From positions 1-63,210 of IMG/VR virus record IMGVR_UViG_3300031722_000029: a DNA stretch of 63,210 nucleotides. One strand, 5' to 3'. Made by a program: the position numbers and the translations under genes. A model generated the notes under the pieces. That model saw only the letters and a program-made list of their open reading frames with translations. It had not been told where the DNA came from and did not search any database. Each line of letters opens with the position of its first letter. Within the stretch, counting starts at the first letter, position 1. Shown here in pieces: positions 21,756 through 33,972 of this stretch. The stretch is from a virus.

Positions 21756-22265
21756 ATGGGTGCATTGATAAACTTACAAGGTAAACTATTTGGCAAATGG
21801 CATGTAATTTCGCGTGCTTCTGCCCCTGTTTCCTCTTGGCAATATAGGTGTGAGTGTGGCACCGAGCGGGTAGTGCGGGCGCAGCATCTGCGGGCGGGAA
21901 CTTCTACGTGCTGCGGCTGCACAAATGCTAGACATAAAAAGCATGGAGAAGCGGCAACTGGAGGGTCGTTCAGCAAGAAGTATAGAACATGGCGACAAAT
22001 TAAAAGGAGATGTTGTGGCAAGTCTAGCTTGCCGGCCTACAGAGGCTTACTATGCGATGCGTGGCAAGAGTATGCTAGTTTTGCTGAGTACATGCCAGAC
22101 CCACCAAGCAACGAGCATACAATTGACCGTATTGAAAACACAAAAGGTTATGAACCAGGAAATGTAAGGTGGGCTACTTTTGCCGAGCAGCACAGAAATC
22201 AAAGTAATTGTAGGCCTATTACTTTTAATGGTAAAACATTATTATTGACTGGGCTAAGCTGCTAG
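21756..22265 (+). CDS. HNH homing endonuclease, C-terminus frameshifted
   Basis: The 169-residue frame has a zinc-binding N-terminal part (CECG...CCGC), the linker YRTWRQIKRRCCG, and an HNH core SIDRIENTKGYEPGNVRWAT-like (HTIDRIENTKGYEPGNVRW). After ITFNGKT the frame leaves the expected DNA-binding tail, which is present in another frame just downstream (22244-22348). It is therefore a homing endonuclease that has probably lost its recognition domain. Confidence 0.8.
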   Translation: MGALINLQGKLFGKWHVISRASAPVSSWQYRCECGTERVVRAQHLRAGTSTCCGCTNARHKKHGEAATGGSFSKKYRTWRQIKRRCCGKSSLPAYRGLLCDAWQEYASFAEYMPDPPSNEHTIDRIENTKGYEPGNVRWATFAEQHRNQSNCRPITFNGKTLLLTGLSC

Positions 22266-24772: not shown

Positions 24773-25341
24773 ACTCTAGGGTTTGTAAAATCTGTGGCTA
24801 AGCTAAGGAGGCCGCGCAAGGTATTTGGGTTGTGCATCATGGTAAACCTATTGGTAATACATGCCGAGTGCGCAAGTCTGTGGTAAGCAAATTTGACCAG
24901 CAGGCGCGTAGGTCTACAGCGGATGGTAGAGCTGCATCAAATGCACAGTCTAGAGCACGCAAGCAAACTGAGGCGGGTAAGGAGAGCAACAAGCAAAGTT
25001 CACTGGCGTACTACAGAACTGAAGCGGGCAAAGCAGCTAGGAAGCTAGCAGTAAAGACGTGGCGCGAAACACACAAAGATGCGGCAGACGCCATGTATGC
25101 TTGTAAAAGAGCAGCAAAAATAAACAGGTCTGTATCTTGGGCTGGCAACTCAAAAATAGCTGAGTTTTACAAAGAGGCTTGTAGACTATCGTCTGTTACA
25201 GGTATACCGCACCACGTGGACCATATAATTCCGCTACAAGGTGCGCTAGTGTCTGGTTTGCATGTAGAAACTAATTTGCAAGTACTACCTGGCGTTGACA
25301 ATATACGAAAGCGAAATAAATTTGTTATTGGTGGTATTTAA
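24769..25341 (+). pseudogene. zinc-ribbon HNH endonuclease gene with in-frame TAA
   Basis: From ATG at 24769 the product reads MNSRVCKICG, then TAA (24799-24801), then AKEAAQGIWVVHHGKP... and continues to an intact HNH core (HHVDHIIPL ... GLHVETN ... VDNIRKRNK). The paralogues at 3365 and 33328 have Glu at the stop position (CGE(S/T)K(E/D)A). So GAA to TAA is the likely lesion. A shorter product from GTG 24832 would lack half of the zinc ribbon but keep the nuclease. Confidence 0.75.
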
Positions 25342-25403: not shown

Positions 25404-26375
25404 TTGGCACATGAGCTATATGTAGATGCAACAGGGAAAACCTCAATGGCTTTCGTAGGTGACACCCCTTGGCATGGCACTGGAAACAGACTAACAGAAG
25501 GCGCTCCGTTAGAAGTTTGGGCAAAAGAGGCTGGGCTTAACTTCCACATCAATGAGGCTGACGTTGAGTTCAACACAGGAAAAGATGTCGACATGCAAAC
25601 CTTTCCGAGTCGCAAAGTACTGTACCGTGATGACACGCTTGCTCCACTTTCAGTTGTTGGCAGTCGTTATCGTGTTGTTCAACCTCTGGATGTGCTTGAG
25701 TTCTTTAGGAATTTGACCGAAAAGCATAGCTGGGCCTTGGAGGCGGCTGGCGTGCTTTTTCAAGGCGCGAAATATTGGGCGCTTGCGCGTACCGGTAACG
25801 AAGTACGTATCATGGGGCAAGACTTGTTGCAAGACTTCGTACTCCTAGCGACTAGTTGCGATGGAACATTACGTACTATTGCTAAGCGTACCTCAGTTCG
25901 TGTCGTCTGCAATAACACACTGTCCATGTCACTCGCCAACAAAAATGAGCTTGGTGTGCGTGTGAGTCATTCATCCATGTTTGACGTCAATGCAGTTCAA
26001 AGCGAGTTGGGATTGACTGACAGTTGGGCCGAGTTCGCTGACAAGGTTGACGCGCTAGCCAAGCGCAAAGTAACTAACCGTGAGGCAGTAGACTTCGTGA
26101 TTAGTTTGTTTGGTGACAAGACGAAGCCCGTTGATGAACAGCCTGCCATTCAGACCATCGCTAAAGTGCTTCAGTTGTTTGACGGAGGTGGCAGAGGTTC
26201 TGATTTGGTAAGTGCTAAAGGTACAGCTTTTGGAATGGTCAATGCTGTTACTGAGTACATTGATTGGCATAAGGGCAAAGATCAGTCACGTCGGCTGGAC
26301 AATGCATGGTTCCTCGGTGGCGCGGACTTGAAAGAACGCGCCTTTAATAAAGCGCTTGAGCTGCTCGCAGCTTAG
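25404..26375 (+). CDS. DUF932 / phage-plasmid-like protein (TIGR03299 type)
   Basis: The 323-residue protein starts at a rare TTG, chosen because of the AGGAG site and the family start MAHELYxxxxGKxSMAFVGDTPWHGTGN. Further family blocks are YRVVQPLDVLEFF, KYWALARTGNEV and RVVCNNTLSMSLA. Members are common on phages and plasmids near recombination genes; their biochemical function is unknown to me. It has its own promoter and is followed by a strong terminator, so it forms a single-gene unit. Confidence 0.85.
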   Translation: MAHELYVDATGKTSMAFVGDTPWHGTGNRLTEGAPLEVWAKEAGLNFHINEADVEFNTGKDVDMQTFPSRKVLYRDDTLAPLSVVGSRYRVVQPLDVLEFFRNLTEKHSWALEAAGVLFQGAKYWALARTGNEVRIMGQDLLQDFVLLATSCDGTLRTIAKRTSVRVVCNNTLSMSLANKNELGVRVSHSSMFDVNAVQSELGLTDSWAEFADKVDALAKRKVTNREAVDFVISLFGDKTKPVDEQPAIQTIAKVLQLFDGGGRGSDLVSAKGTAFGMVNAVTEYIDWHKGKDQSRRLDNAWFLGGADLKERAFNKALELLAA

Positions 26376-26386
26376 GCGCTCGTGCC

Positions 26387-26413
26387 CCGCTGGCCCTCCC
26401 TCCAGCGGTTTTT
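26387..26413 (+). terminator. intrinsic terminator after the DUF932 gene
   Basis: CCGCTGG and CCAGCGG pair over 7 bases around an 8-base loop and are followed by five T. It is 12 bases after the stop codon. Confidence 0.9.
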
Positions 26414-26414
26414 A

Positions 26415-26460
26415 ATGGTGGCAGTCGCAGCAATGCTTGATGTAAGTCCACCATCTTTTT
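26415..26460 (+). terminator. second hairpin with T-tract, terminator or leader element
   Basis: ATGGTGG (26415-26421) pairs with CCACCAT (26448-26454) around a 26-base loop and is followed by CTTTTT. It ends at the ribosome binding site of the next gene (AGGAG at 26461), so it may act as a second terminator or as a leader controlling the downstream operon. Confidence 0.6.
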
Positions 26461-26471
26461 AGGAGACGAGT

Positions 26472-26549
26472 ATGTATGTGAGCTACGACCAAATCATGCT
26501 AGCGGTAATGCTCGTGTTGTTTGTAATACCACTTTTATTCACGGAGTAA
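26472..26549 (+). CDS. very small membrane peptide, 25 residues
   Basis: An AGGAG site precedes ATG at 26472. The product MYVSYDQIMLAVMLVLFVIPLLFTE is nearly all one membrane helix (sequence given in two blocks: MYVSYDQIML and the hydrophobic remainder). Small but with good translation signals; function unknown. Confidence 0.55.
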   Translation: MYVSYDQIMLAVMLVLFVIPLLFTE

Positions 26550-26551
26550 TT

Positions 26552-26707
26552 ATGACCAAGAGTAAGCCGATTAACAAAGCAGGTAAGGTGATTCGCGTTA
26601 GCCTTCACCCATCAAAGGCTGTACTAATGGAAGGCAAGCTCACGTACAGTATTCTGGTGTGCAAGTGGGCCCGCCAAGGTTACTTTGAAATGAACAGGGG
26701 CAAGTAA
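26552..26707 (+). CDS. small basic protein, 51 residues
   Basis: It starts 3 bases after the previous stop with an ACGGAG site. The product is basic and beta-prone (KVIRVSLHPSKAVLMEGKLTYSILV). The stop overlaps the next start (TAATG). Function unknown. Confidence 0.6.
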   Translation: MTKSKPINKAGKVIRVSLHPSKAVLMEGKLTYSILVCKWARQGYFEMNRGK

Positions 26708-27168
26708 TGGCATACGAAGATTTTGATGACGATGACGACTTTGACCCATCGTACGGTATTGGCGAACTTGAAGAAGCTCCAATGGAGTTTCCTGCTGACG
26801 TCGGTGAGTGCATAGATAAGTTGTTCGTGCTACGCTCTCAGCGCATCATGCTTGGCAAAGAGATCGCTGAGCGCAAGCGTACTGAGGCCAAGTACACTCT
26901 GCACATCATTGGTAAACTACGTGATTCCAAACTTACTGGCGGTATGGGCGAAAAGGCTAATGCCTCGTACAGGGTTGAAAAAGTGCCTACCGCCACTAAG
27001 GAGGGCTGGCCGAAGATTTGGGAGTATATCAAAGAGCATGACGCCTTTGATCTGCTGGCGAAGAAGTTATCTGGTAAAGCAGTAAAAGAGCGCTGGGAAG
27101 CCGGCGAAGTAATCGAAGGTATTGAAACCTTTGACAAACCGAAGTTGTCACTCACAAAGAGGTCATAA
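26707..27168 (+). CDS. conserved protein of the replication cassette, 153 residues
   Basis: The N-terminal 30 residues are extremely acidic (EDFDDDDDFD). The middle is a long helix (residues 33-70) with alternating charges; the C-terminal half is mixed. It immediately precedes the probable ssDNA-binding protein. It may be a nuclease inhibitor or accessory factor, by location only. Confidence 0.65.
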   Translation: MAYEDFDDDDDFDPSYGIGELEEAPMEFPADVGECIDKLFVLRSQRIMLGKEIAERKRTEAKYTLHIIGKLRDSKLTGGMGEKANASYRVEKVPTATKEGWPKIWEYIKEHDAFDLLAKKLSGKAVKERWEAGEVIEGIETFDKPKLSLTKRS

Positions 27169-27169
27169 C

Positions 27170-27943
27170 ATGGCAAAGAAAGAAGTTGCAGAAGTGAAGT
27201 CAGAAGTAGAAGTGCTTGACGCTGAGGTGAAAGCCGAAGAGTCCACTGCGCTAGTTAATTACGAAGATGAATTGGCCAAGTATGCTGTTGAGGCTACTGA
27301 GCAAGAAGCTCTTGGTGGTACCTTCGTATCAATGAAGGCTGGCATTATGAAGATCAATGGCAATCCGTGCGCCGGGAACAAACTGGATTGCATCGTCATT
27401 GCGTCGACTATAGAAAACGCCTACTACCCTGGCAAGTACGACCCGAACAACACCGTGCCGCCAAAGTGCTACGCGTTTGGCGAAGACGAAGACACCATGG
27501 CACCACATCCTGATGTCAAGACGCCTGAGAGTGAGAGCTGTCTGCTCTGCCCACGTAACCAGTGGAAAGGCGACGGCACGGGCAAAGAGTGCAAGAACGT
27601 GCGCCGCCTCGCGCTGTTGCCGGCAGATGCTATCAATGACCCTGACAAGATCATGGGCATCGAGCAGATTTACGCCAAGCTCCCTGTGACTAGCGTTAAG
27701 TCCTGGGGTAAGTACGTGCACGCTGTGGCTACCGAGTTTAAGCGTCCGCCATTTGCCGTCATCACCACAATCTCCACTGAGCCAGATGAAAAGACGCAGT
27801 TCAAGGTCATGCTGAAGTGCAAGGCGAATATTCCTACCGGCCCGGTGGTCAATGCATTGATTCGTTGCCACAACAAAGCCAAGGAAACTGTGAAGTTCCC
27901 GTACCCCACTCTGGTTGAAAAAGCCCAGAGCGAAAAGTTCTAA
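27170..27943 (+). CDS. probable single-stranded DNA-binding protein
   Basis: The 257-residue protein has an acidic N-terminal tail, then a domain with four cysteines (CLLCPRN...CKN) and aromatic-basic strands. It lies just before the polymerase module, where ssDNA-binding or DUF2815-like proteins are found in related phages. The ATG at 27170 has an AGAGG site. No definite OB-fold motif can be shown by eye, so the function is an inference from location and composition. Confidence 0.55.
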   Translation: MAKKEVAEVKSEVEVLDAEVKAEESTALVNYEDELAKYAVEATEQEALGGTFVSMKAGIMKINGNPCAGNKLDCIVIASTIENAYYPGKYDPNNTVPPKCYAFGEDEDTMAPHPDVKTPESESCLLCPRNQWKGDGTGKECKNVRRLALLPADAINDPDKIMGIEQIYAKLPVTSVKSWGKYVHAVATEFKRPPFAVITTISTEPDEKTQFKVMLKCKANIPTGPVVNALIRCHNKAKETVKFPYPTLVEKAQSEKF

Positions 27944-27952
27944 GGAGGCACC

Positions 27953-28210
27953 ATGAGTCAAGTCAGTTTGCCTAATATCTCAACCCTGAGTCCTGAGCGC
28001 GAGGGCATGTTGTCCGACTTGAACTCATGGGCAACTCTTCAGGGCTTGCTCGGTCAGCTCAACGATGAGGACACTGTTCAGTTCCTCATGAAGGCTGAGC
28101 AGAATGGAAAGAACCGCATCCGCATCATTGACCGGCTATATTCGCGGTACAATGTACTGCGGCGTGAAAGAGAACGGCGTGACCTTGCTAAGGGTAAATT
28201 GCCGTTCTAA
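27953..28210 (+). CDS. hypothetical protein, 85 residues
   Basis: It starts after AAGGAGG at good spacing. The product is helical, with a basic C-terminal third (RYNVLRRERERRDLAKGK) likely to touch nucleic acid. It is the last gene before the structured RNA region; its TAA lies directly before that region. Confidence 0.65.
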   Translation: MSQVSLPNISTLSPEREGMLSDLNSWATLQGLLGQLNDEDTVQFLMKAEQNGKNRIRIIDRLYSRYNVLRRERERRDLAKGKLPF

Positions 28211-28610
28211 GGGCAGCCTGCTGAACACAGGCATCTCCTCAGTTTGGCACTGAGCCCGTAAGTCATGGCAGGCCGGAAAGACGGTCACCAAACAAGCAAC
28301 ACAGAGCAGCGGAGTTGTCAACTTTGCCAGTATGAGGTACGCTAAGTCCTAGGTGCGTGGCCAAGCAATAGTACACAAAAAGTTGATGGCACCCCGGAAA
28401 GACGGGGACTCACAGTGCAGTGCCTTATTGAACCCCGTGCACTCTACATCAGCCGTGAAGGCCGTGGAACTGGTCAACAGCATAAGGTAGGGCGCTGCAC
28501 TGTGAGCGCTGGCTTCCTAGTCGGGAATGCTCTGTAGTTCAGGGGAAGAACGCCGCTGTTGGCGGAAGTCGCCGAATCGTCTAAGGTCGGAGCCTTGAGC
28601 TAGCGCTCAC
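28211..28610 (+). ncRNA. candidate novel structured RNA (about 400 nt)
   Basis: No frame is protein-like here, but base pairing is dense. In order: a three-way junction with two 5-bp hairpins, both with 7-base loops (28216-28232, 28238-28254), closed by GGG/CCC; a hairpin with loop GAAAGA (28271-28286); a central domain (28303-28390) shared with 36449-36534; a second GAAAGA hairpin with stem CCCCG/CGGGG (28392-28407); a 12-bp helix (28411-28422 with 28493-28504) extended by CCTTAT/ATAAGG; and a multibranch domain closed by a 12-bp helix (28502-28513 with 28599-28610). It lies between two co-directional genes. It may be a leader of the polymerase gene or a processed free RNA. I do not recognise a known RNA family. 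Confidence 0.6.
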
Positions 28611-28634
28611 TTTATATAACTTGGGATAACAATA

Positions 28635-30512
28635 ATGCTCGTAGCATGGGACTTTGAGACTCAACCGATCGAAGAACTTCCAGTATACCCGCCAAGTCCC
28701 GTGGGTATTGCCCTTTATAAGGAGGGCGAAGCGTCGGAATATCTGCGCTGGGGACATCCTGAAGAAAATAACTGTACTGAGGAGTACGCCAAAGACGTAC
28801 TGACACGGTTGTGGAACGACCCAACTGTGGAGTTAATTGCGCACAACAATCCATTTGACTCGTATGTTGCGCATATGAAATGGCAACTTCCACTAAAAGC
28901 TAGCGGCCAAATGCATGATACTTTGGTAATGGCTTTTCTCTGTGATCCCCATGCCATTACGTACGCTCTGAAGCCATTATCCGAGAAGCTGCTTGGCATG
29001 CCACCTGAGGAGTCTGACAAGCTCAGAGAGTACTGCGTGGCGCAAGGCTACATCAAACGTGGCGCTAAACAGTATGGCGAGTTTATTTGGCTCTGCCCAG
29101 GCAACTTAGTGGGTGAGTACGCCTGTGGTGACGTCGAGCGCACAATGAAGTTGTACCACTACTACAAAGCCAAGATTGAAGAGGCTGGTATGTGGGACGC
29201 TTACCTTCGCGAGATGCGTTTGCAGCCTGAAATGCTCGAAAATACACGCGATGGTATTCGCGTTGACGTCGATGGCTTGACTCGTGATATTGCGAAGTAC
29301 GATATTGCATTGAATAAAATTGATGCACTCCTTTTCCAGATGTTGGGCTGCGAACCATTCAACATTAACTCAGATGCACAACTTGCAGACGCCATTGACA
29401 GAGTGCATCCTGGGCTTGTATGGACACTGACTAAGACCGGTAAGCGATCTACCTCCAAGGTGAACATGGAGAAGACGCTTGAAGGACTGACCGGCAAGTT
29501 GTTGGCTGTGATGCAATACAGGGCATCGATACACACCTGCGTCAACACCTTCATGCGGCCTTGGCTGACGCAAGCCACACACCCACTTGGTGGTGGACGA
29601 ATTCGGTGCCAATGGAACACAACTCGCGGTGACGATGGTGGTGCGCGTACTGGTAGACTGAGTTCGTCGCCTAACTTCATGAACATACCTACTTTGAAGT
29701 CGCACAAGTTCACCGCAGTACTAACCCTGTGGGAAGAGTGGCTGAAAGATGAGTTCCCTGCACTGCCTAATGTACGGAGCTACATTCTACCTGACGAAGA
29801 CGAGGTACTAATTTCTTATGACTTCGCATCCCAAGAACTACGCGTACTTGCCCACTACGAGGATGGCAAGCTGCTACAAGCGTACAAAGATGACCCGACG
29901 CAAGACTTGCACCAGTTCGCAGCAGATACCATTTCTGAGTTGCTTTCCATTGCCTTTACAAGAAAGCATGCGAAGACTGTTAGTTTCTCTATTCTCTACG
30001 GCAGCGGACTAGACGCGCTGGCAGGTGGACTAGGCACTTCGCGCGACGAGGCGGCGGAAGTCAAGCGTATCTACTTGGCAGTGCTGCCGGGCCTTGAAGA
30101 CTTAATTGGCATGCTAAAAGCTCGTGCCAGAGCCAACCAACCGCTCAGGACTTGGGGTGGTCGTATTTACTATGTTGAACCAGCGCGCTTCATTGATGGC
30201 CGGTGGAGAACGTTCGACTACAAGCTATTGAACTACCTCATTCAAGGAAGTTCGGCAGATATCACCAAAGAGACTATTATTGAATATGCCAAGCGCCGAG
30301 TGCATGGTCGATTTATTCTTACCGTGCATGACCAAATCGTGATTTCAGTGCCTAGACAGCACGCGCAGTCTGAGTCGCTTATCCTTCAAAGCTGCATGGA
30401 GTCCATAAAGCTAGACGCTCCGTTGCTAGCAGATGGCTCATTTGGGCCTAACCTTCACAATATGAAAGACTTCGATGCCAAAAACGAGAGCGAGTTCCTC
30501 TACGCAGCCTAG
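28635..30512 (+). CDS. family A DNA polymerase with 3'-5' exonuclease domain
   Basis: The 625-residue replicative polymerase has exonuclease motifs WDFET (D6, E8), NNPFD (D75) and YACGD (162-166). Polymerase motif A is SYDFASQELR (D396), motif B is R443...K447...F451...YG and motif C is VHDQ (565-567). The residue equivalent to E. coli Pol I 762 is Phe. Motif C has Gln where most relatives have Glu. No 5'-3' exonuclease domain is present. The start has only a weak ribosome binding site (TTGGGATAAC) and lies 24 bases after the structured RNA region, suggesting translational control. Confidence 0.95.
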   Translation: MLVAWDFETQPIEELPVYPPSPVGIALYKEGEASEYLRWGHPEENNCTEEYAKDVLTRLWNDPTVELIAHNNPFDSYVAHMKWQLPLKASGQMHDTLVMAFLCDPHAITYALKPLSEKLLGMPPEESDKLREYCVAQGYIKRGAKQYGEFIWLCPGNLVGEYACGDVERTMKLYHYYKAKIEEAGMWDAYLREMRLQPEMLENTRDGIRVDVDGLTRDIAKYDIALNKIDALLFQMLGCEPFNINSDAQLADAIDRVHPGLVWTLTKTGKRSTSKVNMEKTLEGLTGKLLAVMQYRASIHTCVNTFMRPWLTQATHPLGGGRIRCQWNTTRGDDGGARTGRLSSSPNFMNIPTLKSHKFTAVLTLWEEWLKDEFPALPNVRSYILPDEDEVLISYDFASQELRVLAHYEDGKLLQAYKDDPTQDLHQFAADTISELLSIAFTRKHAKTVSFSILYGSGLDALAGGLGTSRDEAAEVKRIYLAVLPGLEDLIGMLKARARANQPLRTWGGRIYYVEPARFIDGRWRTFDYKLLNYLIQGSSADITKETIIEYAKRRVHGRFILTVHDQIVISVPRQHAQSESLILQSCMESIKLDAPLLADGSFGPNLHNMKDFDAKNESEFLYAA

Positions 30513-30675
30513 CGCTGTGTGCTTTGAGTGCGGCAAAAAGTATGGTTGCAGAGTACTTCCAGGTGTGTCTACGTACCACATTGGCAAGTGCGGTGTATGC
30601 CACCAGACGAAGGAAGTTACTGAGCCACGCGACTTTGGGTACATGAACCGAGATTGGAAGAAGCATGTCAGCTAA
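30475..30675 (+). CDS. small zinc protein (CxEC...VTEPRDFGY family)
   Basis: The frame encodes 66 residues and overlaps the polymerase gene by 38 bases. It has CFECGKKYG and CGVCHQTKEVTEPRDFGYM, two CxxC pairs followed by a block I recognise from many small phage proteins near polymerase genes. Probably binds one zinc; role unknown. Confidence 0.7.
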   Translation: MPKTRASSSTQPSAVCFECGKKYGCRVLPGVSTYHIGKCGVCHQTKEVTEPRDFGYMNRDWKKHVS

Positions 30676-30967
30676 TGAGTGGGCAAGAATTGCCGATAAA
30701 AGACCGCATATTGGAGATAGGTGCTTGATACGCATCAATGACGTTGTGCAGCACGAGGTCTACATCTACGATGAATCGGATGACGAACCACCGTTTTGGT
30801 TTAGGTATGGTGTAGAAGATCTGCCGTCTGTCGAACCAGAGCATCTTTGGATGCCACTACCTAGACTCGGCAAGGTAAGCATTGTAGCGCTTGTTGATGT
30901 GCCTTCATTGTCCTACAGTGCAGGCATAAAGGCGCTGATGAATGGCAAGCTAAAGGACCTGCCATGA
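30665..30967 (+). CDS. DUF551-like small protein, 100 residues
   Basis: It overlaps the previous gene by 11 bases. The start (EWARIADKRPHIGDRCLI) and HLWMPLPRL block are like DUF551 proteins, which occur throughout phage early regions. The second half differs. Function unknown. Confidence 0.6.
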   Translation: MSANEWARIADKRPHIGDRCLIRINDVVQHEVYIYDESDDEPPFWFRYGVEDLPSVEPEHLWMPLPRLGKVSIVALVDVPSLSYSAGIKALMNGKLKDLP

Positions 30968-31311
30968 AAATACCTGACTGGCACCAACCCAAAGATCAGA
31001 TGTGTAGCTTAGGACGGCACAGCTGGGACGTGTCACGACTTCATGAGCTAGCACGTAAGCTGCCTATTATGGACGTGCCACTGAACCATCTGAGCTTGTA
31101 CTACACATACGAGAAACTTACGCTGCGTCAGATGACCATGCATATTCGCGCAGTCAACGAAGCTGATTTAGACTACCCCATTATACTCGACGAGGACGGG
31201 GAGTTGCTCGATGGGCGGCACCGACTGATGAAGGCTATGCTGCTTGGTGTAGACACGATTCGGGCTGTTCGCTTCGACACGAACCCACCTCCTTGCAAAG
31301 TATCGGATTAG
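30964..31311 (+). CDS. ParB/sulfiredoxin-fold protein, 115 residues
   Basis: Residues 75-108 (PIILDEDGELLDGRHRLMKA...) carry the DGRHR block of the ParB/Srx superfamily, which binds or hydrolyses nucleotides. The remainder is short, so it is a minimal domain protein. It overlaps the upstream stop by 4 bases. A nuclease or regulatory role is possible. Confidence 0.7.
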   Translation: MKIPDWHQPKDQMCSLGRHSWDVSRLHELARKLPIMDVPLNHLSLYYTYEKLTLRQMTMHIRAVNEADLDYPIILDEDGELLDGRHRLMKAMLLGVDTIRAVRFDTNPPPCKVSD

Positions 31312-31313
31312 CT

Positions 31314-31640
31314 GTGGGCAACTTCTATAATAACGCTATAACACGTAAGGCTGCCAAAAGTCACAGATGTTCGTACTGCGGCGAAACTATTCACAAGGGC
31401 ACTGAGTACTCACACCAAAAAGGCCGGTACGAAGGTAGCTGGTATGACAACAGGATGCACTTTGAATGCTATGAGGACCTTTGCGAAAACGGTGATGGTG
31501 AGTACACCTTGTACAGTAATGAGCGTCCAAGGCCTTTCCAGTGCAGGTTCTGCGGCTGTCCTTCGTGGGTAGACCCGTCTGACCAAGTACCTCCGCCGGA
31601 CTACTGCCACGAATCTGACCATGGAGAACCCTATGCTTGA
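31314..31640 (+). CDS. zinc-finger protein, 108 residues
   Basis: I chose the GTG at 31314, just after the upstream stop; a TTG at 31293 is the alternative. HRCSYCGETIHKGTEY and HFECYE form a known phage zinc-binding pattern, and CRFCGCPSW adds another cysteine pair near residue 80. Function unknown. Confidence 0.6.
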   Translation: MGNFYNNAITRKAAKSHRCSYCGETIHKGTEYSHQKGRYEGSWYDNRMHFECYEDLCENGDGEYTLYSNERPRPFQCRFCGCPSWVDPSDQVPPPDYCHESDHGEPYA

Positions 31641-31938
31641 GAGGGATGTTGAGAGGCGCTTTGTAGCACGACTTAAGAAGGAGCTAGGCCTACGTAGTGC
31701 TAAGCTCAAGGCAATAGCCAACTCTGGATGGCCTGACAGGTTGATACCGCTGCCTAATGGGTTGTCAGTTTATGTTGAACTCAAAGCGCCTGGGCGCGAG
31801 AAGAATACCTCAGCGCACCAGGAAGATGTTATAGCCTATTTAAAGTCTTGTAATGTGCCTGTGTTAGTAACTTCATCACATGAAGACGCCATAAACTTCT
31901 GCATACACCATAGTTTGAGGAAGGTTGCGCCAGAATGA
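31633..31938 (+). CDS. VRR-NUC domain nuclease
   Basis: ATG at 31633 has GGAG 5 bases upstream and gives 101 residues. The PD-(D/E)xK core of VRR-NUC reads GWPDRLIPLPNG...YVELKAPG (near 36-60), followed by HQEDVIAYL. Such stand-alone phage VRR-NUC enzymes are structure-specific nucleases, often cutting Holliday junctions, and are typically coupled to an SNF2-type helicase. The next gene is exactly that, with a 4-base overlap. Confidence 0.9.
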   Translation: MLERDVERRFVARLKKELGLRSAKLKAIANSGWPDRLIPLPNGLSVYVELKAPGREKNTSAHQEDVIAYLKSCNVPVLVTSSHEDAINFCIHHSLRKVAPE

Positions 31939-33347
31939 CTGACCTTACCAACTGGGTACCGCCGCAGCCATGGGTGCCGCATGACTACCAAAAGGAAGCC
32001 GTGCAGCATATCTTGCAGATGCCCGGCAGCGGGTTGCTGCTAAAGCCCGGTAAAGGCAAGACATCGTCCCTGCTAGCTGCGTTCAAAATACTGCAGAACA
32101 AAGGCCTAGTCAATGCCGTCTTAATTGTTGCCCCATTACGTGTTATTAAATTTACTTGGGCGCAAGAGGCAGAGAAGTGGATTGATTTCGAGCACTTTAA
32201 GTTCATTACACTACATGGGCCTAATAAAGACGCTGACTTGAAGAAGAAGGCGGACGTGTACCTTATCAACTTTGAAGGCTTGATTTGGTTATTGCCTAAA
32301 TTGGCAAAGCTGAGCGTGTGGCCATTTCAGATGTTGGTAATCGATGAGTCAACAAAGTTGAAGGCCTACGATTCTAAACGATTCAAACTACTAAAGCCTT
32401 TGTTGTCAAAGTTCAAGCGACGAGTTATTTTGACAGGCACGCCGGCACCAAATTCACTCATGGACTTGTTCTCTCAAATGTACATAGTAGATCAGGGCAA
32501 AGCGCTTGGCAGGTACATCACACATTTCCGCAACAGCTTCTTTACGCTGGATACCTCTAGGTCAAAACCTGGTGAGCCGCCTAATGCCTGGAACTACGTA
32601 CTAAACCAGGGTGCTGACGTCGAAATAAAGGAGCGTATTAAGCACTTGGTATACACTAGCGATGGCCCAGAGTATACGTTTGGCCAAGAGCCACTAATAA
32701 ACGACCTCTACGTAGAGCTACCACCGGCTGCTAAAAAGCAGCACAAGAACATGCTTAAGTTGCTTATGGCCCAAGTAGAAGAGGGCGTCGTACTCGCTGC
32801 AAATGCCGCTGTTGCTATGGGTAAGTGCATACAGATTGCCAACGGGGCGCTCTACACAGACGACCAATACAACTACGAGGTGCTGCATGATGGTAAGCTA
32901 GACGTGGTAGAAGATTTGCTAGAGGAACTTAGTGGTAGCCCAGTGCTTATTTGGTATCATTTTAGAAGCGATATTGCGCGTCTGCAAGCTAAGTTCCCTG
33001 GAGAGGTTTTCACGGCTAAGTCTAAACCAGACATTGTTGAGAGATGGAATGATGGCAAGATACCAATCATGTACGTGCATCCAATGAGTGCGGCACATGG
33101 TTTGAACTTACAAAAGCCAAGCAACACTATGATTTTCTTCTCAATACCGTGCTCGTCAGAGGGTTACCAGCAGGCTATTGCTAGGCTTGCCCGCCAAGGC
33201 CAAAAGCACCAAGTTACTGTGCACAGGATACTATCACGCGGTACCGTGGACGAGTCTTTGATTAAGACGCTAGCTAGGCGCGACGCTAACCAAGCATCAC
33301 TAATTGCCGACTTGAAGGAATTTTGGCATGGTAACAAAGACCTGTAA
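31935..33347 (+). CDS. SNF2-like DEAD/H-box helicase or translocase
   Basis: The 470-residue SF2 enzyme has motif I KPGKGKT (37-43), motif II DEST (137-140), motif III LTGTPAPN (167-174) and motif VI QAIARLARQGQ near residue 420. It partners the upstream VRR-NUC nuclease in junction processing or replication restart. It overlaps the next HNH gene by 20 bases. Confidence 0.9.
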   Translation: MTDLTNWVPPQPWVPHDYQKEAVQHILQMPGSGLLLKPGKGKTSSLLAAFKILQNKGLVNAVLIVAPLRVIKFTWAQEAEKWIDFEHFKFITLHGPNKDADLKKKADVYLINFEGLIWLLPKLAKLSVWPFQMLVIDESTKLKAYDSKRFKLLKPLLSKFKRRVILTGTPAPNSLMDLFSQMYIVDQGKALGRYITHFRNSFFTLDTSRSKPGEPPNAWNYVLNQGADVEIKERIKHLVYTSDGPEYTFGQEPLINDLYVELPPAAKKQHKNMLKLLMAQVEEGVVLAANAAVAMGKCIQIANGALYTDDQYNYEVLHDGKLDVVEDLLEELSGSPVLIWYHFRSDIARLQAKFPGEVFTAKSKPDIVERWNDGKIPIMYVHPMSAAHGLNLQKPSNTMIFFSIPCSSEGYQQAIARLARQGQKHQVTVHRILSRGTVDESLIKTLARRDANQASLIADLKEFWHGNKDL

Positions 33348-33972
33348 AGTTTGTGGTGAATCTAAAGAAGCTGTTAAAGGCACTTGGGTTACCTTGCGAG
33401 GCATGCCAGAGGGTAAAACATGCTTGGCATGCAAAGTAAGCATAGCAAAAGCTATCAGGACTACTGAAGAGGGCCGGGAAAAGTATAACGCGTACTTCTT
33501 GGCGAGATATTACAAAGACCCCAATGTTAGGGTTAAGCTAAACGAATGCAACAGGCTAAGACGCAGCACCCCAGAGGGCGCCAGCTACGCCAAAGCAGCA
33601 ACCCTAAAAAGTTCACGAAAGATACGTGCTACTGAGGTAGGTAAGGCAGCGCATAGTGCCAGGAACTTGGCGTGGGCTGCTCGAAATCCTGACAAACACA
33701 ACGCCCGTGGCATGTTGAGGCATGTCTCTAAGCTACACCGTACACCTGCATGGGCGGACCTACGGGCAATACAGGAGTTCTACACGCTAGCCACGCAGCT
33801 TACTGCTAGCACTGGTATTGTGCATTCCGTTGACCATGTAATACCTCTACGTGGAAAACTAGTCAGTGGCCTACACGTGCACAATAATTTGCAAGTAATA
33901 ACGAAAACAGCGAACAGTTCCAAGGGAAACAAATTTGATCTGGAAGAGTTTAACAGCAAACACGTGATATAA
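33328..33972 (+). CDS. HNH endonuclease with N-terminal zinc ribbon
   Basis: The 214-residue protein has CKVCGESKEAVKG...CLAC at the start, a basic middle with repeated (S/T)xEG and RxxTEVGK-like segments, and a C-terminal HNH core (HSVDHVIPL ... GLHVHNN ... SSKGNK). It is the full-length version of the family that includes 3365-3886 and the broken 24769-25341. It starts inside the helicase gene, as mobile endonucleases often do. Confidence 0.87.
   Translation: MVTKTCKVCGESKEAVKGTWVTLRGMPEGKTCLACKVSIAKAIRTTEEGREKYNAYFLARYYKDPNVRVKLNECNRLRRSTPEGASYAKAATLKSSRKIRATEVGKAAHSARNLAWAARNPDKHNARGMLRHVSKLHRTPAWADLRAIQEFYTLATQLTASTGIVHSVDHVIPLRGKLVSGLHVHNNLQVITKTANSSKGNKFDLEEFNSKHVI

Follow-up and report, generated by a model that had tools for sequence, protein, structure and literature searches.

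A structured, conserved RNA with modules common to phage stable-RNA transcripts upstream of a phage DNA polymerase gene

The window analysed here is the whole 63,210-nt stretch of the IMG/VR virus record IMGVR_UViG_3300031722_000029. Within its tight, co-directional replication operon, a 424-nt non-coding gap on the + strand (28211-28634) separates the stop codon of an 85-aa gene (27953-28210) from the ATG (28635) of a gene encoding a family A DNA polymerase. A preliminary description had pointed to such a gap in an otherwise tightly packed gene array, and these coordinates bear it out. The gap is conserved in position in L003, a viral contig with the same gene order and a polymerase 76% identical to that of the window. 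Its 5' portion, hereafter block A (28211-28289), contains two hairpins, GCCTG-CTGAACA-CAGGC (28216-28232) and CTCAG-TTTGGCA-CTGAG (28238-28254). A direct repeat of 20 nt, located at positions 28265 and 28386 and absent from the preliminary description, proved to be the key feature of the locus. Its core is a hairpin designated hpA and defined as AUGRCA followed by NNNCG-GAAAGA-CGNNN, with the stem closed by CG...CG around GAAAGA. The window presents two instances of this definition on the + strand, ATGGCA + GGCCG-GAAAGA-CGGTC (28265-28286) and ATGGCA + CCCCG-GAAAGA-CGGGG (28386-28407), and the second is directly followed by a long helix (28409-28507), a feature seen in a subset of hpA matches.

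Covariance searches of the whole window against Rfam 15, in which membership is defined by a covariance-model score at or above the gathering threshold, returned zero matches, and no match was obtained at E-values up to 10 between positions 27900 and 28700. This agrees with the initial impression that no known large RNA family is present, and no Rfam 15 model, including any for GOLLD, ROOL, HEARO, OLE, group I introns and riboswitches, matched the region. An intact tRNA, with cloverleaf, T-arm and 7-nt anticodon loop, was likewise discarded (0 genes in ARAGORN, none in Rfam), as was a tmRNA with a tRNA-like domain and a tag reading frame, for which both methods were negative. The long helix was also considered as an integron attC-like element, but neither the window nor L003 has the AAC/GTT core; similarly, ATGACA and its spacer could suggest a sigma-70 promoter, yet they are not followed by a -10 box. 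Both interpretations were set aside. BLAST searches with the whole region returned only short partial matches in phages, leading to Xanthomonas phage FoX2 and to a tRNA-Asp, and nothing in plasmids.

The folding energy of the entire gap is modestly better than that of shuffled sequences on the + strand (z = -1.80, with 5 of 100 shuffles equally good) and not better on the - strand (z = -1.00). It is mainly positions 28386-28520 that contribute the signal, encompassing hpA and the long helix, where none of 200 shuffles folded as well (z = -3.24). The locus had been put forward as a large structured RNA. The data support structure, clearly in this segment and modestly over the gap as a whole, but the term large applies loosely, since only some 130-280 nt are common with L003 and a large share of the 424 nt represents, by comparison with that contig, an insertion present in this phage only.

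The preliminary description centered on two 12-bp helices that would compete as in a switch. Both are present as claimed. Helix 1 pairs 28411-28422 (CACAGTGCAGTG) with 28493-28504 (CGCTGCACTGTG) through 11 Watson-Crick pairs and one G-U pair, helix 2 (28502-28610, + strand) pairs 28502-28513 (GTGAGCGCTGGC) with 28599-28610 (GCTAGCGCTCAC) through 11 pairs and one G-U pair, and the two overlap by three bases (28502-28504). When stems of 12 bp or longer within 130 nt and with no more than one G-U are counted, the sequence has two, against a mean of 0.005 in 200 dinucleotide shuffles, none of which contained two. The suggested extension of helix 1 was only partly substantiated: CCTTAT (28423-28428) and ATAAGG (28482-28487) do occur, but pairing them bulges out TAGGG (28488-28492). 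Better continuous arms are provided by 28409-28427 and 28488-28506 (19 nt, 89% complementary), which delimit the long helix directly 3' of hpA.

These features raise the possibility of a cis-acting 5' leader controlling translation or transcription of the polymerase, for instance through attenuation or alternative pairing. The gap directly precedes the polymerase start, helices 1 and 2 are mutually exclusive over three bases, and a weak terminator-like hairpin lies at 28596-28609 (1 found, 0.6 expected). In L003, however, helix 1 is a local hairpin and only the 3' strand of helix 2 is present, so that the competing helix is missing. Helix 2 is therefore not conserved, and lacking its 5' strand in L003 it does not support the proposed switch; a riboswitch or attenuator, which calls for mutually exclusive conserved helices coupled to an expression platform, was discarded on the same grounds. 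A leader function is further weakened by hpA preceding unrelated genes or tRNAs in other phages, and by polymerase relatives at 38-48% identity that manage without the motif. On balance, we consider a cis-acting leader unlikely.

L003 was the only close homologue available for comparison of the window-specific parts. In its equivalent gap, an RNA region spanning some 280 nt has a folding z-score of -2.85, and the hpA plus long helix segment of L003 folds at z = -6.43. Block A is 79% identical between the two phages and a second block, B (28431-28489), is 88% identical, rising to 93% over a 55-nt core (28431-28485, + strand), while three flanking coding stretches show lower identities (61-69%). 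In block A, the CCTG-loop-CAGG core of the first hairpin is kept in L003, and a U-A pair of the second is replaced there by C-G. Between blocks A and B, both phages have CCCCGGAAAGACGGGG as a hairpin, with a long helix immediately 3' of it; the sequence of that helix differs (CTCACAGTGCAGTGCC... in the window, GACCCACACGAGACACG... in L003), indicating that the structure of this first helix, and not its sequence, has been kept. Block B lies within the helix loop in the window and outside it in L003. The comparison thus corroborates a conserved hairpin-plus-long-helix architecture with changed helix sequence. Beyond L003, the hpA motif with a stem of at least three further pairs was absent from 47 polymerase loci with readable flanks (38-48% identity), in many of which a small gene ends tens of bases or less from the polymerase. 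The most parsimonious interpretation is a gain of the RNA within this clade.

The conservation of block B could alternatively reflect a short coding sequence in the frame NPVHSTSAVKAVELVNSI. All four substitutions in the 55-nt core are synonymous in this frame and fall at one codon position, the third, a pattern with a chance of about 1 in 27. Yet the frame has neither a shared start nor a common upstream part in the window and L003, its peptide has no match in phages, and, in the folds inspected, one substitution (T to C) makes for a better RNA pair as well. This makes coding a highly improbable explanation. A second viral-contig match of the peptide, in L004, falls in an unrelated gene and looks like chance.

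Searches with the pattern ATGRCA-NNN-CGGAAAGACG-NNN located hpA in at least 120 IMG/VR stretches; matches were retrieved by exact pattern, and hpA counts are lower bounds. The loop and the AUGRCA element were fixed by the search, and hence only the stem and the context provide independent evidence. No pairing filter was applied, and all three variable pairs were complementary in 78 of the 118 distinct matches listed, compared with 12.5 in shuffled sets. In an alignment of 114 listed sequences (111 distinct), the stem had a covariation score of 0.438 (0.132 shuffled) and 119 double changes (44 shuffled), a signal that falls clearly once the pairing partner is slid. Related variants with loop GACAGA or GAGAGA also exist. 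The hairpin was not found in the Rfam library searched, and no relevant paper on the motif sequences was found in a literature search that left most subscription papers outside its scope. A pattern search in one bacterial family revealed no overall excess over a reversed-pattern control, indicating that hpA is not a general chromosomal element in that family. A 31-nt hpA query returned short, weak plasmid matches, several of them in unannotated stretches.

Relative to random positions drawn from the same contigs, and ignoring kinship among phages, hpA is preferentially found outside ORFs of at least 90 aa (59 of the 80 full-stem matches listed, against 22% of random positions) and close to stable-RNA genes, with a tRNA or tmRNA within 500 nt in 25 of 118 listed matches, against 2 of 192 random positions. 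The gaps holding the 80 listed full-stem matches have a median length of 500 nt, and hpA was co-directional with the surrounding genes in 62 of these. None of the tRNA or tmRNA neighbours among the listed matches was antisense. A long helix directly 3' of hpA was present in 14 of 52 listed matches, against 0-1 of 52 in shifted controls, and 24 such cases were identified among the matches listed in a wider set, including the window, L003 and FoX2. Like that of L003, the FoX2 long helix is a counterpart of other sequence to that of the window, and it lies with hpA in a largely non-coding region of about 900 nt. Two odd tRNA genes are located 3' of this module (L009:1147-1325). In the region corresponding to it, an HNH endonuclease is annotated in the related phages FoX3 and M29, and an integrase in Murka.

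With its inverted repeats, hpA could instead be a recombination boundary in DNA or the remnant of a mobile element, marking cassette joints and having no role as RNA. Two hpA copies flank the insert in the window, the module 3' of hpA varies between phages, and the segment appears to have been gained by the clade. Lambdoid boundary sequences, conserved at intergenic module joints, offer a precedent (e.g. bsq4 in CUS-3, annotated near the BLAST match in that phage). Unlike these, however, hpA combines covarying stems with a strong strand bias. While stem covariation fits RNA and DNA readings alike, the strand bias (the 62 co-directional cases among 80 listed, and the lack of antisense tRNA neighbours) argues for selection on an RNA over a DNA palindrome, and we deem a purely DNA-level element quite improbable.

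Among the listed matches, the spacing between hpA and tRNAs clusters at 4-9 nt where hpA precedes the tRNA and at 3 nt where it follows; the four cases in the latter position all involve tRNA-Leu and may come from related phages. Permuted tmRNAs are present at two hpA loci. In phage tRNA/tmRNA clusters, including those with permuted tmRNA (RF04321), hpA lies between or beside such genes on the same strand. The window resembles tRNA arrays in that its insert matches one and in its tRNA-like remnant; it differs from these clusters in having no intact tRNA or tmRNA and in its location inside a replication operon. The insert (28303-28385, + strand) is absent from L003 and has a counterpart in the tRNA-rich phage contig L097, where it stands directly between a tRNA-Thr and an hpA hairpin; AGAGCAGCG, CAGTATGAGGT and GCCAAGCAATAGTACA are common to both phages. 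Its closing helix (28318-28325/28379-28386 in the window) differs in sequence between the two. With hpA copies bordering it on both sides, the insert has the appearance of a module picked up at this hairpin. Downstream, positions 28532-28582 (+ strand) are probably the remnant of a tRNA-Asp, judging from a recognizable D-arm and anticodon arm; the anticodon loop and T-arm are eroded. The likeness is weak (82% identity to a phage tRNA-Asp, BLAST E-value 0.4), its D-arm and anticodon-arm portion is limited to 28532-28572, and the region folds no better than shuffled sequence. Elsewhere, a stretch of about 1.1 kb in Xanthomonas phage XaC1 (L256:660-1800) has no annotated genes and many repeated GTACT-type words, and contains a 25-nt, 92% match to window positions 28369-28393.

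GOLLD and ROOL occur in phages and prophages, often near tRNAs. Both are large structured non-coding RNAs (PMC12286853), and a trans-acting RNA gene of this kind, with its own role in infection, would be consistent with the modular structure of the window RNA, with tRNAs adjoining hpA in many phages and with an hpA copy number of about one in most of the viral records surveyed, although these were preselected for having a match. The window RNA is nonetheless smaller than GOLLD and ROOL, different in sequence and devoid of Rfam matches at the thresholds tested. Furthermore, no promoter-like site was found in the gap, the region lies inside a co-directional operon, and the two known relatives have only parts of the structure in common. 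An independent trans-acting RNA hence seems doubtful. The HK022 put antiterminator also consists of adjacent stem-loops that work as RNA in a phage transcript (PMC9378689), but at about 70 nt and with two long stems it is unlike the window RNA; GGANAGAC was not found in HK022 positions 26,000-33,000, a stretch that may not hold both put sites.

The canonical tmRNA central region contains pseudoknots. Units resembling hpA were identified inside the central region of cellular tmRNAs (RF00023) of a Sumerlaeota bacterium and some Actinomycetota, in a part that the Rfam model aligns poorly. They consist of TGACA and a hairpin with loop GAAAGA or GACAGA, and occur in Rfam-confirmed tmRNAs at L140:211-607, where they are in tandem (Sumerlaeota), L188:7-388 and L229:5414-5796. 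In contrast to these molecules, the window RNA lacks a tRNA-like domain and a tag.

Overall, the gap encodes a structured, selectively conserved RNA with modules common to phage stable-RNA transcripts. The best reading, to which we assign a probability of roughly 45%, is a co-transcribed non-coding structured RNA built from tRNA/tmRNA-transcript modules (hpA, a long helix that begins at the 3' base of this hairpin, and a tRNA-flanking domain) and retained as a processing or stability element, its probable role. The segment would have come into the clade as a fragment of a stable-RNA (tRNA) array; its tRNA would since have decayed, and the segment would have been kept for the processing or stability of RNA around the polymerase message. 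Under such a model, hpA and the long helix may act as a nuclease-resistant insulator separating the upstream mRNA from that of the polymerase or, alternatively, may protect a processed small RNA. A parallel is found in other phages, where the ends of mature tRNAs often lie 3-9 nt from hpA, a proximity that provides the best, albeit indirect, clue to function. Against this reading stand the modest z-score of the whole gap, the lack of a tRNA within 500 nt of most listed hpA matches, the weak tRNA likeness at 28532-28582, the availability of a single close homologue and the absence of an intact tRNA both in this phage and at the L003 locus.

More tentatively, hpA may constitute an undescribed and very widespread RNA block common to stable RNAs (tRNA arrays, tmRNA and long structured leaders) of phages and plasmids and to some of cellular origin, binding one conserved host factor or directing one processing step, with the window RNA as a large assembly around it. 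If these readings are right, phage tRNA/tmRNA transcripts and structured RNAs would have in common a recurring module absent from the Rfam library searched, providing a means to study how phage non-coding RNAs are processed or protected. Such RNAs would be modular, swapping domains at a common hairpin, and a simple search could recognize many unannotated intergenic gaps.

Another module, ...GGTGAATGCGCAGGCTGATGCGC...GCCGGAGATCAGCACCGGCCACC..., is also very widespread in phages. It can be read as a pair of hairpins whose loops (GCUGAU/AUCAGC) are complementary, enclosed by an outer helix of variable sequence (GTGGT/ACCAC, GGAT/ATCC). It is found in lambdoid late regions between Q and the lysis genes, with instances at L249:2196-2325 (Erwinia phage phiEt88), L064, L109, L039 and more than 110 IMG/VR loci (L338-L455), and the loci scanned had no Rfam match. 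A copy of hpA is found no more than 700 nt from this module in 11 of 117 cases. Finally, three ORFs of the window (21756-22265, 24832-25341 and 33328-33972) have translations that resemble HNH homing endonucleases by eye. Two of them were scanned and gave no Pfam hit; the three together suggest that the phage may carry mobile DNA near its replication genes.
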